NCBI GenBank assembly: GCA_002701785.1
Contig: NZXC01000035.1
Span: forward strand, 1 to 10,864
Source of the DNA: Fidelibacterota bacterium
GTDB lineage: Bacteria > Fidelibacterota > Marinisomatia > Marinisomatales > TCS55
DNA: 10,864 nt
Reading direction: 5' to 3'
Under the pieces are notes generated by a model that did no database searches, was not told the DNA's origin, and saw nothing but the letters and a program-made list of their open reading frames with translations. Of this stretch, positions 487 through 9,125 are shown one piece after another. The position numbers and the translations under genes were made by a program. The stretch's first letter is position 1. Each line of letters begins with the position of its first letter.

Positions 487-942
487 TCAAGTTTTAGGAT
501 ACAATTCCCACTTTCGTTTGCCACGATTCAGAATAAAAAGTGCCAGACCTAAAAATATAATATCTTCAACAATTCTTCTAAATCCTATATGGCTTCCACC
601 ATTCTCTACAGAAACTTTAAAACAACCACAATTAATATCGATTCCTCGAATCATCGCCTGTGATAAAGCGATAATAAATACACACATCATTCCAGCAGTG
701 ATTACTGCCGAACCATCAAGCATAACACCAAAAATAAGGCAACATCCGACAAATAACTCTAAGATCGGTAAAATAATAGCAACAATATTTTCCAGACCAA
801 AAGGTAATACATTATAATTCCCAATTATTTTTGCAAACGCTTCTGGGTGGAGAATTTTATCAATGCTCGCAGCAATAAGAACTACACCTAACACTATTCT
901 TGAAAATAATACAAGTACTGAACGCTGTTTTAAACTAATCAT
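487..942 (-). CDS. MauE/DoxX-like integral membrane protein with NCGC motif
   Basis: This 151-residue protein has four predicted membrane segments (about 8-28, 50-73, 78-98, 121-138). After the third it carries the motif IDINCGCF with Cys105 and Cys107, followed by ENGGSHIGF, the arrangement of MauE-type members of the DoxX-like superfamily. MauE is needed for maturation of methylamine dehydrogenase, and related proteins with this Cys-x-Cys motif are thought to act in thiol redox transfer across the membrane. Its start overlaps the rhodanese stop as ATGA (942-939), so the two are translationally coupled. It is the last gene of a three-gene operon led by a probable selenoprotein, and there is no methylamine dehydrogenase gene nearby. 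I infer that it passes electrons between a membrane donor and its two periplasmic partners. Family assignment is good; the function is inference. Confidence 0.8.
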   Translation of the reverse strand: MISLKQRSVLVLFSRIVLGVVLIAASIDKILHPEAFAKIIGNYNVLPFGLENIVAIILPILELFVGCCLIFGVMLDGSAVITAGMMCVFIIALSQAMIRGIDINCGCFKVSVENGGSHIGFRRIVEDIIFLGLALFILNRGKRKWELYPKT

Positions 943-1415
943 GGACCTATTGGGTGGCCATTTTCACTCCATTCAGTCCACCCTCCTTTGAAAACATATA
1001 AATTAGTAAAACCTTCTGCTTGTAATTCATAAGCTAAATCTTCACTTGAGCCACATTCGTCAGCACTGCAATAAAGCACTATAGGGCTATCTTTTCCTTG
1101 GAGACTATCAAGCTTAAATGTTAGCTCGAAAAAAAATGGAATATTCCAAGCACCCATTATATGACCATCAGTAAAATATTCTGGCTCTCTAGCATCTATA
1201 AATACTGTACCTTTCTTATATAAATCAATCGCTTGTTCTAATGTAATAGCTAAAAGCTGCGGTTCGTCAACTGTAATTTCAATATTATCTGCTACATCAA
1301 GCTCCTTAGCAAGTAAAGGAATACCATCAGTACGAACACCGTTGACAAATAAGCTAAATACTGATGAGAAGACTATTAATACAAAAACCTGAACCGATGG
1401 CAATCCTATGTTCAT
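939..1415 (-). CDS. Membrane-anchored rhodanese-domain protein
   Basis: This 158-residue protein begins with an uncleaved-looking hydrophobic helix (about 8-24) and a linker, then a single rhodanese domain (about 55-155). Visible family signatures are VFIDAREPEYFTDGHI and GAWNIPF (CH2A-like region, 71-93), the active-site loop after IVLYC with the presumed catalytic Cys116, and the C-terminal YVFKGGWTEW. The loop CSADECGSSED is acidic and has a second cysteine, Cys121, where typical single-domain rhodaneses have a basic CxxGxRS loop, so the substrate may differ. Rhodaneses carry sulfane sulfur (or selenium) as a persulfide on the catalytic cysteine. The domain probably faces the periplasm. 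It overlaps its upstream neighbour (ATGA, 1415-1412) and its downstream one (ATGA, 942-939), which argues for a shared function with the Sec-containing lipoprotein and the MauE-like protein. Confidence 0.88.
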   Translation of the reverse strand: MNIGLPSVQVFVLIVFSSVFSLFVNGVRTDGIPLLAKELDVADNIEITVDEPQLLAITLEQAIDLYKKGTVFIDAREPEYFTDGHIMGAWNIPFFFELTFKLDSLQGKDSPIVLYCSADECGSSEDLAYELQAEGFTNLYVFKGGWTEWSENGHPIGP

Positions 1416-2605
1416 CCAGATTTAATACCCTTTTTAAAATTCTTTTCAAATTCTGAAGAATTTTTCATGAGATTATTCTTATGTTTAAATTTTGTAAGCA
1501 CTTCACACTGTTGAAGTACATCTGTAACGTATGTTAGCATTACTTGATCATCATCTATCTTTCGCGATAATGAAACACTTTTATATAAAGAAGTATTTTT
1601 GGCTAGTTTAAGATTTTTCTCAAAAGATTCACGATTTTGTCTCAATTCACCGATTAATTTTATTATTCGAGGCTGATCAGCATAAATATCTTCCAATGAC
1701 TTTTTTGGATCTTTATTCTGAAACCTTTGCAAACGTTTATCAATATTATCCATTTGAGTGTGCAAACTTGAAACATCTACTAGTGGAGAATCTATCTCCG
1801 TTAAATTAATATCAATTTGTGCTAAATATTTTCCTTGAATATTACTTCCATATGTAAATGGCCCATTTAATGGTTGCTCTGTCCCAGATCTTGTTCTCAT
1901 CGGATTTCTACTAAGAAACACATAATCTGCATCAATAAATTCTTCATTCATCAATTTATTTTTATCTCTATTCACATTTGCTAATACAACAACAATATCA
2001 ACTTTCTTTCGCAGTTCGGCTATCTGTGCTTTTCCAACAGAGATAAAATCTTCAAGCTTTACTGTTCGAACATGTGATGGAATTAAATTTGTAAGACCGA
2101 TCACACCTATGGATATACCAGCATTTTCAATTATATGGTGTGGAGGAAATAGATGCTGCTTAGTCTTAGAATCTATAATATTCGCTGAAATAAATGGAAT
2201 CTCGGTGCTATCAACAATTAGTTGAAGATAGTCAATTCCAGCCGCCATATCAAAGCCTCCTACATTAACAACATCACACCCTATCTTTTCATAACCTTTA
2301 ATAACTGTTTGGGCACGCAATTTATCCGCTTCTGATTGAACATCTACTAATACAGAACTATTAAACAATAAATCACCTGCATCAAGAATAACTACATTCT
2401 TTCCTTCATTATTTAATTGTTTAACGTATGTTGACTTTCTAGACAGACCGCCTAGAGGATTCTTCTTTCATCCGCAGGGGTCAAGTTGACCCCGAACATT
2501 TGTAGAAACTAATAAAGTTATATCACCAACAACATCCTTCTCAGATTTTGTACAAGCAACTAAGAAGATTAAAACAGTCAATAAAGTATAATTAAATATT
2601 TTCAT
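1412..2605 (-). CDS. Probable selenoprotein: UshA-like metallophosphatase-family lipoprotein, in-frame UGA at codon 46
   Basis: Starting at ATG 2605, the frame encodes a lipoprotein signal peptide with lipobox LVAC (Cys18), then DITLLVSTNVRGQLDPCG, an in-frame TGA (2470-2468), then KKNPLGGLSRK and an uninterrupted frame to TGA at 1412: 397 residues with the UGA read as Sec46. The GQLxPCG[C]xxNPLGGLxR motif belongs to the UshA/5'-nucleotidase-like metallophosphatase superfamily, where I recall Cys at the UGA position, so C44-x-U46 is a likely redox pair. A SECIS-like hairpin follows at once. Metal ligands look degenerate: DxH became NxR (36-38), GNHE became NVGG (near 114-117), and GHTH is missing near SRNP (about 232), so phosphatase activity is doubtful. 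The C-terminal 120 residues are helical and charged. A caller that stops at UGA yields only a TTG-started piece from 2368 lacking the signal peptide and Cys motif. The gene overlaps the rhodanese by ATGA. It has a weak AAGG ribosome site. Confidence 0.88.
2438..2470 (-). promoter_or_regulatory. Bacterial SECIS element with its UGA (Sec) codon
   Basis: The UGA is at 2470-2468. After an 11-base spacer, UCUAGGC (2456-2450) pairs with GUCUAGA (2444-2438), seven pairs including one G-U, closing a GGUCU loop (2449-2445). The GGUCUG string falls at bases 19-24 after the UGA. As I recall the E. coli fdhF SECIS, its AGGUCU loop places GGUCUG at the same distance. The guanine and uracil of this loop are what SelB recognises. 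The hairpin lies in coding sequence, as bacterial SECIS elements do. Confidence 0.85.
2477..2493 (-). repeat. 17-base perfect palindrome just before the UGA codon
   Basis: GGGGTCAACTTGACCCC is an inverted repeat of 8-base arms around one central base, encoding the residues just before the Sec motif. Its 3' end is 6 bases before the UGA. In RNA it could form GGGGTC/GACCCC with a five-base loop. Whether it is functional or a by-product of coding is unknown. Confidence 0.5.
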
Positions 2606-2678: not shown

Positions 2679-4046
2679 TTAATTATTATCTTTTTTATCT
2701 AACTGAGCAAAATAATCATCTTTTGCTCTATTTAATTCATTGATAATACTCAATCTTTTCTCAATTAATTCATATAATAAAATACGTTTCTGATAAAAAA
2801 TAGTTAAAAACCGAATATGTTGTTGATAATTCTTGGCTTTCCTAAAATAATATAAAGAGAAATTTCCTGCAGGAATAAAAGTCGCAAAAAAAAGTATAGT
2901 CCAAATCAAGTCAAAACTAGTAGAATGAAATAATAGAAGTAACAATGAATACCAAAAAACAAAAAAACCTAGACCAATGAGCATTTTTTTTGAACTTATA
3001 TCAGCAATATTCCCCTTTACTGCCCATACCGCAAGATGACCAGATATTTTGTACGGTAAATAATTAATTATTACACCATATACAAATATTGGAAATCCAA
3101 TAATTAAAAATAACCATGATTGAATACGACGGAAAAAAGTGATCTTTGATTGTCCTGTAGATAAAAAATCATCGCGAATATTAAGCCTATCTAACATACT
3201 AATATAGTTGTATATAGACTGTTTCATATCAAGTGTCCATTTAGGTTTATTTTTACTAAACCATTCCAACGCTTTTATAATACCTTTGGATATATTAAAG
3301 TCATCACTCTTAGATTTTTTATCCATTCCTAAATTTACAGTAAGCTCTTTTTTGTATATTGATTCTAATGACTTAAGAATGTCTTCATCTGCTTTATCAG
3401 AAACTGTTGTTGTAAGCTTTTCAAGAGCTTTACGTATTTGATTAGTAACTTCCTCTACTGCTAACCAATTATCTTTTTGATATTTCTCTTTATAGTCCAT
3501 TAATTTAATTGGCCTACCAAATCTACAATGAACATCACTGCGAAATTTTGTACTCGCCGAATAATTTATTCCTGCAGGAACAATTTGTACATTTAATAAA
3601 AAATCATTCTTTTCCTCAGCTCCTAGTCCAATTCTTGCTGCGCCAGTTTTAATTTTATGAATAATTCGTTCTGGGGTAGATGCTCCTTCAGGGAATATTA
3701 ATAAGCCGTGATTCCTCTCTAAATGCCGGTAGGTAGCTGAAAACATTTCTTCATTCTTATGCATATCATCTTTTGCATCACTTTTCCTGTAAACAGGTAT
3801 AATTCCAATCATGCTCAATAACCTGGAAACAATAGAGTTCAAAAATAACGTGCTTTTTGCTAAAAATGATACTCTACGTCCGCAACTTGCAGCTACTATA
3901 AGAGGATCCATCATTGTATTGGGATGATTTGCAGCAAAAATCACAGGACCTTTTTTTGGTACCCTATCCTGATTCTCCACAGAAATAGAATTATAAAATA
4001 AATTAATTCCTGTAATGGCAATCGGTCTTAGTAAATGATAGAGCAT
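2679..4046 (-). CDS. PlsC-type glycerolipid acyltransferase with C-terminal membrane domain
   Basis: The N-terminal half of this 455-residue protein is an LPLAT acyltransferase domain (about 5-215). Block I is NHPNTMMDP with His41 and Asp47, spaced HX5D as in many long FCB-group members. LAKSTLF (62-68) and IIPVYR (82-87) follow. Block III is FPEGAST (118-124) and block IV is IVPAGINY (155-162). Such enzymes transfer acyl chains to glycerol-3-phosphate or lysophosphatidate at the inner membrane; the exact acceptor is not readable here. The remainder contains a charged helical region, three or four membrane segments between about 313 and 400, and a charged helical tail. That makes it roughly twice the usual PlsC length but normal for the long Bacteroidetes-like form. 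The start codon overlaps the SUI1 stop as TAATG, with GGGGGA just upstream as ribosome site, so the two are coupled. Confidence 0.85.
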   Translation of the reverse strand: MLYHLLRPIAITGINLFYNSISVENQDRVPKKGPVIFAANHPNTMMDPLIVAASCGRRVSFLAKSTLFLNSIVSRLLSMIGIIPVYRKSDAKDDMHKNEEMFSATYRHLERNHGLLIFPEGASTPERIIHKIKTGAARIGLGAEEKNDFLLNVQIVPAGINYSASTKFRSDVHCRFGRPIKLMDYKEKYQKDNWLAVEEVTNQIRKALEKLTTTVSDKADEDILKSLESIYKKELTVNLGMDKKSKSDDFNISKGIIKALEWFSKNKPKWTLDMKQSIYNYISMLDRLNIRDDFLSTGQSKITFFRRIQSWLFLIIGFPIFVYGVIINYLPYKISGHLAVWAVKGNIADISSKKMLIGLGFFVFWYSLLLLLFHSTSFDLIWTILFFATFIPAGNFSLYYFRKAKNYQQHIRFLTIFYQKRILLYELIEKRLSIINELNRAKDDYFAQLDKKDNN

Positions 4047-4393
4047 TATCCCCCGCTAAATTTTGATTTATATCCTTTTTTAATCAGAAGATCTTTCACC
4101 TTTTTACGAAAATCTCCCTGTAATGCTATTTCATTTTGCTTGAAAGTGCCTCCAGTACTACAGGATGATTGCAAATATTTACCTAAAGTTTTTAAATCTT
4201 CTTTACTTCCTTTATACCCTCGAATTACAGTTACAATCTTCCCTCCACCTTTTCTAATCAAATGAATTCGCAAATCTTGCTTACCATCAGGATCCATATC
4301 CATTTCTTGCTCTTGATCTTTATCGAAATCAGGATTTGTTGAATAAACAATTGAAGAATTGTTATCTTTGCTAATAAGACCTCCAGATTGCAA
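4046..4393 (-). CDS. yciH: SUI1/eIF1-family translation factor (YciH-like), non-AUG start
   Basis: The C-terminal two thirds (about 40-115) is a SUI1 domain: RIHLIRKGGGKIVTVIRGY, then LGKYLQSSCSTGGTFKQ, EIALQGDF and KKVKDLLIKKGY, ending in a KFSGG tail. Bacterial SUI1 proteins such as E. coli YciH bind the 30S subunit and can influence start-site selection. The N-terminal IVYSTNPDF (15-23) is also conserved in the family, so translation must begin before it, yet the first ATG in frame is codon 31. The options are TTG at 4393, directly after the TAA of the upstream gene and without a visible ribosome site, or ATT at 4375, preceded at 3 bases by a perfect GGAGGT and giving MSKDNNSSIVYSTNPDF. 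I favour ATT on the ribosome site and the natural-looking N-terminus; the coordinates give the longest form. The stop overlaps the acyltransferase start (TAATG). Confidence 0.88.
   Translation of the reverse strand: MQSGGLISKDNNSSIVYSTNPDFDKDQEQEMDMDPDGKQDLRIHLIRKGGGKIVTVIRGYKGSKEDLKTLGKYLQSSCSTGGTFKQNEIALQGDFRKKVKDLLIKKGYKSKFSGG
4379..4384 (-). promoter_or_regulatory. Shine-Dalgarno GGAGGT that bears on the SUI1 start
   Basis: GGAGGT on the minus strand is a full anti-Shine-Dalgarno match, one of the strongest in the window. It lies 3 bases before ATT (4375-4373) and 6 bases inside the frame that opens with TTG at 4393. No AUG lies within reach downstream, so if it is used, the start is AUU. 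The spacing is a little short. Confidence 0.5.
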
Positions 4394-6106
4394 TTATTTT
4401 AATAAGATAATTTTCTGCGTTTGTACATCTTTATTCATTTGTAAGTGAACAAAATATATACCATTTGCAAATGAAGCTCCATCCCAATAAAATACTTTAT
4501 TCCCTGACGTAAAGACATCATCTGCTAAAGCGGTCACGTATCGTCCATGTATATCATAAATATTCAACTGTATATATGCTTTTCTATCCAAATATATTGG
4601 AATATTAACTCTTGGGTTGAATGGATTTGGATACGGTTCGTGTAAGGCAAAATTGTGGGCTATACTTGTTTCTTCAGAAACTTCAAGATCGTTTATTATA
4701 AAATCTGCTACTCTAGGCAAATGATCCGAAGCTTCATTCGTATCATCTGACTCTAATTCCCATTCAATTAATACGCTATCAGGCATGGATAAGGTATTTA
4801 GTACAAAATGTCTTGATATAGATATGTTACTATCGGTATAAATAATATAATCTAATTTCCCTGGATTATATGAGCTCCCATCATTTCGCCATGTATATCC
4901 CATTCTTTTATGCGTGTGTCTAGAGAAAAGATCAGTAGCTGAGCTACCATCCCAATCCAAAGGAAAATCATTACCATATGATGATTCATCGTATATATCC
5001 CCAAGAGTTACTGTGTTTATTTGTTGTTGATATCCGACAAAATTAAAGTCCCCAACATGAAAAATCGGTGTATTATCAGGTAGATCAAACGGACCATCGC
5101 CATATAAAATCCATTCTCTAAGAACTTGAACTAATTCATCAACCTGTTCCTGCCTATTATCATCGTTATCACAACAGGAAAAATGAGAATTTATAATTAA
5201 TACATAAGGTTGATTTGGATTATCAATTTCTAATAATGAACACATTGATCTCTCAGAACTAATCAAATTCGACTCTTCTAAAATAGGATATTTGCTTAAT
5301 ATTACAAGATCACGGAACGTATACCCTTGATACCAAGTGTCATTGGGAAACCAGCTTGATACAATATCACCTATTTCATCCCATTCACTGTGTTCCTGCA
5401 ACGCAATTATATCTGGATCTAATGCTTGAAATATTCTTTGAAAATATGGTTGGCGATCTGATTCAACAATACCTGTATTGTAGGTATTATAACTCACTAA
5501 ACGGATATCAGCCTTTTCTAATGATATGGGTTCTAATTCTTCTACTTCAGTAGAATCAATTTGATATATAATTCCTCCCCAATTATCTGGCATCAAATCA
5601 CCATAGTCATTATTACTATTGAAAATAATTGCAATAGAATCCGGATTATTTAACACAAAAGAATCAAGTGCAATAGCAATTTCAAATTCATTACTTGTCA
5701 CAGTAGGAGCCTGTCGTAGAGTAATATCATTCTGCCCTATATCAATCACTCCATCCTGAACAAAATATTGTCCGGAACGTTCACCAAAATGCCACTCTAA
5801 CTCAGCACCTACCCCACGAAATGGATGACCTGTTAATGAATCAAAGTCTGCATCAATGTATAAGTGAAAATTATTCCAATTTTGGAGTAAGGTTTCTTCA
5901 CTGTGTAATTGAATTTTTAAAAATAGAAACTCATTATCGTTAGATATCTTCAATTCCGCCCAATCATCTCCAGTATAGTCCCCTTCTTCATCTATAACAG
6001 CAATAGGGATTGAATCCCAATCATCCCAAAGACCATCAATAACAATAGGATCGGAAGCATTGAGAAAACCGATAAATAATAATAAACTGATAAAACACGC
6101 AATCAT
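4394..6106 (-). CDS. Secreted endonuclease/exonuclease/phosphatase-fold protein with CBM9/DOMON-like and C-terminal sorting domains
   Basis: This 570-residue exported protein has a signal peptide (about 1-18, ending in LNAS) lacking lysines in its n-region. It is followed by a CBM9/DOMON-like beta domain (20-185; IDGLWDDW, NFHLYIDADFDS), then an endonuclease/exonuclease/phosphatase domain (about 200-470). The catalytic set looks complete: Asn207 in SYNTYN, Glu238 in LQEH, His308 in INSHF, Asp353 and Asn355 in VGDFNF, Asp419 in KLDY, and Asp461-His462 in SDHLP. This fold hydrolyses phosphodiesters or phosphomonoesters (DNA, sphingolipids, phosphoinositides); the substrate is not deducible. The last 80 residues form an Ig-like sorting domain starting YPNPFNP and ending KIILLK, typical of type IX-like secretion in FCB bacteria. 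Its TAA is directly followed by the SUI1 frame. A terminator ends 17 bases before the start, so its promoter must lie upstream of or within that hairpin. Confidence 0.85.
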   Translation of the reverse strand: MIACFISLLLFIGFLNASDPIVIDGLWDDWDSIPIAVIDEEGDYTGDDWAELKISNDNEFLFLKIQLHSEETLLQNWNNFHLYIDADFDSLTGHPFRGVGAELEWHFGERSGQYFVQDGVIDIGQNDITLRQAPTVTSNEFEIAIALDSFVLNNPDSIAIIFNSNNDYGDLMPDNWGGIIYQIDSTEVEELEPISLEKADIRLVSYNTYNTGIVESDRQPYFQRIFQALDPDIIALQEHSEWDEIGDIVSSWFPNDTWYQGYTFRDLVILSKYPILEESNLISSERSMCSLLEIDNPNQPYVLIINSHFSCCDNDDNRQEQVDELVQVLREWILYGDGPFDLPDNTPIFHVGDFNFVGYQQQINTVTLGDIYDESSYGNDFPLDWDGSSATDLFSRHTHKRMGYTWRNDGSSYNPGKLDYIIYTDSNISISRHFVLNTLSMPDSVLIEWELESDDTNEASDHLPRVADFIINDLEVSEETSIAHNFALHEPYPNPFNPRVNIPIYLDRKAYIQLNIYDIHGRYVTALADDVFTSGNKVFYWDGASFANGIYFVHLQMNKDVQTQKIILLK

Positions 6107-6183: not shown

Positions 6184-6738
6184 TTAAAAGGAACTTTGAC
6201 CCTGAGGATTCCACTTTTTTAGATCTTCAGAATAATAATGATGCCCATCTGCAGTAATAGCGACATAGAATGTTCTTTCACCTTCTGTACCTTCAAGAAC
6301 ATTTAATGCAACAAAATCTGAACGATCAGCAATCTGTGTTTGAAATTTAAACTTGCTACCGATTGAAATTGGGCTCGGATTTTTCATAAATAATATTTTT
6401 CCATTTGTTGTTAATGCAGCAAAACCAAGAACTGGAGGTGCAATACCTTCTTTATAGGATATTAATGAACATATTTTTTCTTTTTTATCCATTGAAGCAT
6501 CAAGTAACTCTAATTTTTGTTTCAAATTATTAAGTACTTCTGAACTAACTGATTTCCCTGGTTCCCCTTTGGGTCCTGGAGGACCTTGCAAACCTGATTC
6601 ACCTTTAGACCCTTCAGTTCCTTCTTGACCCTTTGGACCAATAGGCCCCTGTAGGCCTTCAGGTCCAGGAATAGCCTTTGGGGTGCATCCAACAGCCACA
6701 ATTAATACACAAAAGAAAATCGAAAAATATCTATTCAT
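6184..6738 (-). CDS. Collagen-like repeat lipoprotein
   Basis: The 184-residue product starts with a lipoprotein signal (hydrophobic 5-17, lipobox AVGC, Cys18). Residues 25-63 are 13 uninterrupted Gly-X-Y triplets, including GPP, GPK (three times) and GEP, the classic composition of a collagen triple helix. A short helical segment (about 64-88) could register or trimerise the chains. The C-terminal 90 residues ([19 protein letters not shown] to the end) look like a small beta-rich globular domain that I do not recognise, ending in [18 protein letters not shown]. Bacterial collagen-like proteins form surface stalks or adhesive trimers; here the lipid anchor would place the stalk on a membrane. 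The start overlaps the upstream stop as TAATG, with GGTGG as ribosome site, so it is coupled to the PycTM-like gene, and a strong terminator follows. Confidence 0.85.
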
Positions 6739-7274
6739 TATCCACCAAATAGAAACGGTAAAGATCTTGTATACGCTACAGACATTACGATTAATAACTC
6801 AGATATAATAGCTACTGCAAAGAAACGTATTGCCGTTTGCATATGTCCATGTTTGTAATCATTGATGGAAGCAACTGAATACACTTGATTCGCAAACATC
6901 GTATAGGCCCTATTTTCGTCATCCATAATTTTTCGTAAATATTTCCCATATTTTGAGGCACTATTAAAACTTACAATCCCTTTAAAATAAGTAGGGTTTG
7001 TTTCAGGTAAATCATCCTGTTTCTCTCTTCGCTTAATTCTAGGATTTATCACCATAATTAATTGGATAAGCGCCACAAGCGCCGCAACTAGATAGAGTAT
7101 AAGCATGATAAAGTTAAACCAGTTTATTTGTATTTTAGGAAAATGCACTAAAAAGAAAACCATAAACACACCCATCAAGGAAAGCATGGTAAATGCTTTT
7201 TGATCTGTTCTCATAATAATTTGCTGCTCACTATCTAGTACTTTAAATAATGATAAATAATGGTCATCTTTCAT
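6738..7274 (-). CDS. DUF5706/PycTM-like membrane protein
   Basis: This 178-residue protein has two membrane segments near the N-terminus (about 27-45 and 54-76), a cytosolic middle part and a C-terminal membrane segment (about 149-170). [12 protein letters not shown] (24-35) and [21 protein letters not shown] (128-148), the second before the last helix, match the pattern I know for the Pycsar effector membrane domain (PycTM, DUF5706), in which a D-x-KA motif opens the first helix and a Q-x-Y..S....K motif precedes the last. In Pycsar phage defence, such proteins respond to cCMP or cUMP and damage the membrane. No cyclase gene lies in the window, and the coupled partner is a collagen-like lipoprotein, so a housekeeping or envelope role is at least as likely. 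Start: ATG at 7274, with a weak AGGA upstream. Confidence 0.7.
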
Positions 7275-9035: not shown

Positions 9036-9052
9036 CAAAAAAAATCAACCTG

Positions 9053-9125
9053 TGGAGCCGGACGGGATCGAACCGACGACCTCCTGAATGCCATTCAGGC
9101 GCTCTCCCAACTGAGCTACGGCCCC
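9053..9125 (-). tRNA. tRNA-Ala (anticodon GGC)
   Basis: The minus strand gives a full cloverleaf. The acceptor stem is GGGGCCG/CGGCTCC with the G3-T70 pair that identifies alanine tRNAs, the D arm is GCTC..GAGC, and the anticodon stem CCTGA/TCAGG holds the loop ATGGCAT with anticodon GGC. The T arm contains GGTTCGATCC. Position 73 is A; CCA is not encoded (next bases CAG). No terminator separates it from the M1 peptidase gene downstream. Confidence 0.97.

Follow-up and report, generated by a model that had tools for sequence, protein, structure and literature searches.

A TGA codon within an UshA-like lipoprotein gene

The stretch of DNA analysed here (the window) is contig NZXC01000035.1 of the Fidelibacterota assembly GCA_002701785.1 at its full length of 10,864 nucleotides, and forms contig 36 of a genome of 1.82 Mb that is 92.8% complete. 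Its reverse strand carries three overlapping genes for an UshA-like lipoprotein, a rhodanese-domain protein and a MauE/DoxX-family membrane protein (Table 1), and the first of these is crossed by an in-frame TGA. When the frame was re-read, the coordinates given by a first-pass annotation of this DNA proved correct, with a start ATG at 2605-2603, a single internal TGA at codon 46 (2470-2468) and 351 codons from there to the terminal TGA. The product has zero matches in Pfam. Its lipobox-like Cys18 column holds Cys in 29 of the 30 rows of our protein alignment (30 of 33 sequences; L013, L017 and L038 left out). The host genome is a relative of Candidatus Neomarinimicrobiota (SAR406), and the closest of six named records found is a metagenome-assembled genome of that group, JAPYRG010000031.1, with 96% protein identity to the UshA-like protein.

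Table 1. Features of the selenoprotein gene and its two downstream partners in the window
Feature	Position	Strand	Remarks
UshA-like selenolipoprotein, 397 residues including Sec46	1412..2605	-	One frame; terminal TGA 1414-1412
UGA codon 46, selenocysteine in PCGU	2468..2470	-	TGA in 34 genes, TGT in L040
Probable lipoprotein signal peptide up to lipobox-like Cys18	2552..2605	-	Assigned by eye, no signal-peptide program
SECIS-like hairpin UCUAGGC-GGUCU-GUCUAGA	2438..2456	-	nt 15-33 from the U of UGA; loop nt 22-26
Rhodanese-domain protein, YCSADECGSSE	939..1415	-	Start overlaps the UshA-like stop (ATGA)
MauE/DoxX-family membrane protein, CGC motif	487..942	-	ATG overlaps the rhodanese stop as ATGA

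Codon 46 in related genes

The NCBIfam profile NF041198 (UshA_like_PCGU) found matches in all 41 genomes searched, with none of the 41 over the cut-off among the matches listed, and in 9 of the 14 control genomes. Since these matches include distant paralogues, a match alone says little, and the codon itself was therefore read. The motif was searched for at 34 loci (the window; L012 to L041 minus L015, a second entry for the window; L046, L047, L080 and L083) and found at 33, with TGA at 32 and TGT at L040 only. Translation of L083, which lies outside the motif pattern, gives NLCGU (where U is selenocysteine, Sec), and the partly masked L062 gives DPCGU, so that 34 TGA genes were read in total, all with C-G-U. 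Among the matches listed, these genes occur once each in 31 of the 41 genomes, with an additional one in G011 (L080) and one each on the named contigs L046 and L047; the Cys codon form occurs in one genome (G038), and neither the UGA gene nor a Cys form of the same type in nine (G002, G012, G015, G018, G020, G021, G022, G028 and G035; 67 to 93% complete), whose weaker NF041198 matches were read in part. The comparison at position 46 that had been proposed in the first-pass annotation thus came out in its favour, the orthologues having TGA or a Cys codon there.

A hairpin after the UGA

A hairpin resembling a selenocysteine insertion sequence (SECIS), with a GGUCU loop, had also been claimed to follow the UGA, and it is indeed present, with its loop at what we take to be the distance in Escherichia coli fdhF. 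Folded alone, it is unremarkable (z −0.85, −1.49 and −0.76 for three stretches), and an Rfam search with E up to 5 returned no match at the hairpin. A control stretch of 45 nt that starts at the terminal TGA gave a z of 0.27, no better than shuffles, and the GGUCU loop is absent there. The single-sequence fold is weak, and the case for the putative element is carried by comparison.

We have aligned 32 UGA sequences over this region, leaving out L040, L062 and L083. Codons +6 to +8 read GGC GGT CTG in 32 of the 32 counted genes, with the loop at nt 22-26 each time. The Cys gene L040 has GGA GGG CTT at these codons and the loop is absent, while L062, taken by reading and outside the counts, has GGC GGT CTT and would pair with a one-base shift. 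The pair 18-30, which joins the third bases of codons +5 and +9, covaries as GC, AU, CG, GU, UA and UG and is paired in all 31 distinct rows. Across the six-pair helix, 95.2% of the cells are paired, versus 25-53% in slid versions. Against shuffles that leave the relatedness of the rows in place, the covariation score of 0.314 was reached in none of 500, and the further pair types were matched in 7 of 500.

Selenium machinery

The search of the same genome suggested in the first-pass annotation returned all four components. The genes selB, selA and selD are over their cut-offs (in the control genomes, 1 of 14, namely E. coli, for selB, 1 of 14 for selA and 2 of 14 for selD), and the tRNA-Sec model scores 65.4 bits, in agreement with an ARAGORN call with anticodon TCA. 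The selD gene (L010, contig 50 of this genome, 16395-17321) is itself a selenoprotein gene, with an in-frame TGA in HGSGUACK. Over the 41 genomes, selA is over the cut-off in 35; among the matches listed, it is found in 30 of the 31 genomes with the UGA gene versus 5 of the 10 without (Fisher p 0.0018, relatedness not corrected for). In G038, the genome with the Cys form (98% complete), no selA match exceeds the cut-off.

Selenocysteine against other readings of the UGA

Together, the orthologue codons, the hairpin and the machinery strongly support the claim that Sec46 is inserted, and by comparison we regard Sec insertion at codon 46 as near certain. Were the UGA instead a premature stop, through a pseudogene, a sequencing error or a short regulatory peptide, the weak single-sequence fold of the hairpin would fit; yet in 34 genes the TGA is flanked by open frame on either side, every counted one has the GGUCU loop, and this explanation is extremely improbable. 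Nor is it credible that UGA has been reassigned throughout the genome to a different amino acid, for instance Gly or Trp, as the open frame alone might allow, in view of the three operon genes that TGA terminates (a claim of the first-pass annotation that was borne out), the tRNA-Sec with its TCA anticodon, the SelA and SelB of this genome, and the one TGT form read, L040, which is without the GGUCU loop. Pseudogene, sequencing error and genome-wide reassignment were accordingly rejected on conservation and selenium machinery.

Several observations weigh against Sec decoding through this hairpin. Changes on both sides are seen in one of the six pairs, a count that 477 of 500 shuffles reach and that is exceeded in some slid versions, which have 2 such pairs; two pairs are invariant, pair 16-32 is broken in 6 of 31 rows and pair 17-31 in 3 of 31, and in 18 of the 32 genes nt 15 and 33 do not pair. 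Support for the hairpin thus comes from the rich covariation of a single pair, the synonymous codons that are fixed in the loop and the comparison with slid versions. The homologues L048 (contig 9 of this genome, 16818-17843; YPKKMLRGSLGG) and L054 (G001) lack both Cys and Sec at the motif, and were excluded as paralogues that do not have the Cys/Sec pair. Scores above the cut-off of the tRNA-Sec model are also seen in 5 of the 14 control genomes, which makes the ARAGORN TCA call the better evidence, and G001 (67% complete) has the UGA gene yet no selA match.

A known family and a divergent branch

The first-pass annotation was mistaken in believing the family undescribed. The Global Ocean Sampling survey of 2008 (PMC2398784) has in its table an entry 'COG0737, UshA-like, CxU', with a row of 76, 20 and 92, which we take to be the numbers of Sec sequences, of samples and of Cys sequences; the window protein is likewise a COG0737 relative with CxU from a marine source. 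A passage of that survey gives conserved Cys-based redox motifs for all major families except SelD, FdhA and UshA-like. An UshA-like protein with CxU is also listed in passages of PMC9312934 and PMC13188914, the latter naming NF041198, and three SAR406 cluster genomes appear in a table of PMC5029168. UshA-like selenoproteins are therefore an already described family, and the novelty here is much below what had been believed. The function of the family is unexplained in the passages that deal with it, which describe no chemistry for it.

The window protein is homologous to NF041198 over profile positions 5-394 (E 3.7e-67) and shares its CxU motif, as given in a table of PMC13188914. It differs in its score of 227.1 bits, short of the cut-off of 275, and in that its match stops before the C-terminal region of the profile (about 395-519); by our own mapping, this region covers the Pfam Cytochrome_C554 domain of the homologue L050. 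Because the score lies below the NCBI cut-off, this branch may have been overlooked by automatic annotation. Homology to NF049981 (UshA-like (seleno)protein family 2) is weak (E 1.8e-7; 30.9 bits, cut-off 140), and the motif of that family in the same table is CxxU. What is new is modest, namely a divergent stand-alone branch that falls under the NF041198 cut-off, is without the C-terminal heme part, differs from UshA at four of five metal-ligand columns and shares an operon with the rhodanese and the MauE-like CGC protein. We do not claim the SAR406 form as unpublished. Related proteins with a CxC motif were seen at L050 to L053, with CxxCH motifs by eye in L051 to L053; L050 is a fusion that also contains cytochrome c554 and LysM domains.

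Fold and metal-ligand columns

From the predicted structure, the UshA/SoxB metallophosphoesterase fold is present, and a conserved loop behind its first strand, D-P-C-G-U-K-x-N-P-L-G-G, holds Cys44 and Sec46. To our knowledge, a CxU loop is found in neither the 5'-nucleotidase UshA nor the thiosulfohydrolase SoxB. We have placed five metal-ligand columns, from what we take to be the UshA list, with columns 78, 117 and 210 located through an alignment with 3jyf and columns 36 and 38 by eye. Four of the five differ from UshA and SoxB: Asn36 and Asn210 are each found in 29 of 30 rows, residue 38 is Arg in 18 of 30, and residue 117 is variable. Asp78 alone is well kept. Over these five columns, the complete two-metal ligand set of UshA/SoxB was not found.

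Operon partners and other genes of the window

The stop and start codons of the three genes overlap at 1415-1412 and 942-939, and all three end in TGA, whereas TAA is the stop codon of the 8 others that were checked. Over 24 distinct non-window loci, a rhodanese gene lies downstream in 20 and a MauE gene in 19; the contig of L082 stops before the MauE position. The MauE CGC motif is retained in 19 of the 19 sequences read, the window's among them. The window rhodanese matches NF041203 (rhodanese (seleno)protein family) weakly, at 50.4 bits against a cut-off of 115, and has no in-frame UGA.

Elsewhere on the same strand, an SUI1/YciH-like translation initiation factor (4046-4393) lies two genes upstream of the UshA-like gene and is matched in 19 of the 24 loci. 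The gene at 4394-6106 encodes a protein with a type IX secretion sorting tail and an Exo_endo_phos match below the cut-off, and that at 6738-7274 a membrane protein with a match to Pfam PycTM (Pycsar effector), possibly related to defence. Genes for tRNA-Gly (GCC) and tRNA-Ala (GGC) lie at 365-438 and 9052-9125.

A possible envelope relay

Since four of the five ligand columns have changed, the protein is probably no phosphoesterase, and we hold it highly probable that it is a selenoprotein of another kind. An enzyme that is still a metal-dependent phosphoesterase or nucleotidase, its metal site tuned by Sec46, is unlikely in the face of the changes at columns 36, 38, 117 and 210.

On the comparative evidence, SelB and tRNA-Sec very probably decode UGA codon 46 as selenocysteine through the hairpin that follows. 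The protein has the fold seen in the N-terminal domain of 5'-nucleotidases and SoxB and would be dead as a phosphoesterase. Cys44 and Sec46, which the first-pass annotation took for a redox pair, as we also infer from the sequence, may form a selenenylsulfide and act in thiol/selenol redox chemistry or as a sulfane-sulfur site in the cell envelope. The rhodanese and the MauE-like protein, with its own CGC motif, might serve this pair, electrons or sulfur crossing the membrane by way of the MauE-like protein. The heme-fused relative suggests electron transfer as a common theme. We would put such a relay function with the operon partners at slightly under an even chance.

Other points count against a loss of the metal site or against the relay. 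Asp78 is retained in 27 of 30 rows, so that metal binding is possible. The loop 44-51 is predicted with a local distance difference test score (pLDDT) below 50, which leaves its placement with respect to the former metal site uncertain. In the DNA fetched, neither partner lies at three UGA loci among the 24 (L047, L080 and L083) or beside the Cys form L056. We also know of no characterised CxU site on an UshA-like fold.

Taken together, comparison supports the Sec codon, the hairpin, the machinery, the fold, the ligand changes and the operon. Tentatively, a former two-metal phosphoesterase may have become in SAR406 a stand-alone, selenium-dependent redox or sulfur-transfer lipoprotein, with the metal site lost and no heme domain, in an envelope relay of a Cys-Sec pair, a rhodanese and a CGC membrane protein. 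The analysis adds a well supported branch to a selenoprotein family, and given the changes at the metal-ligand columns and the conservation of the three-gene operon, the label 'UshA-like' becomes a testable idea of a redox or sulfur relay in a marine phylum.
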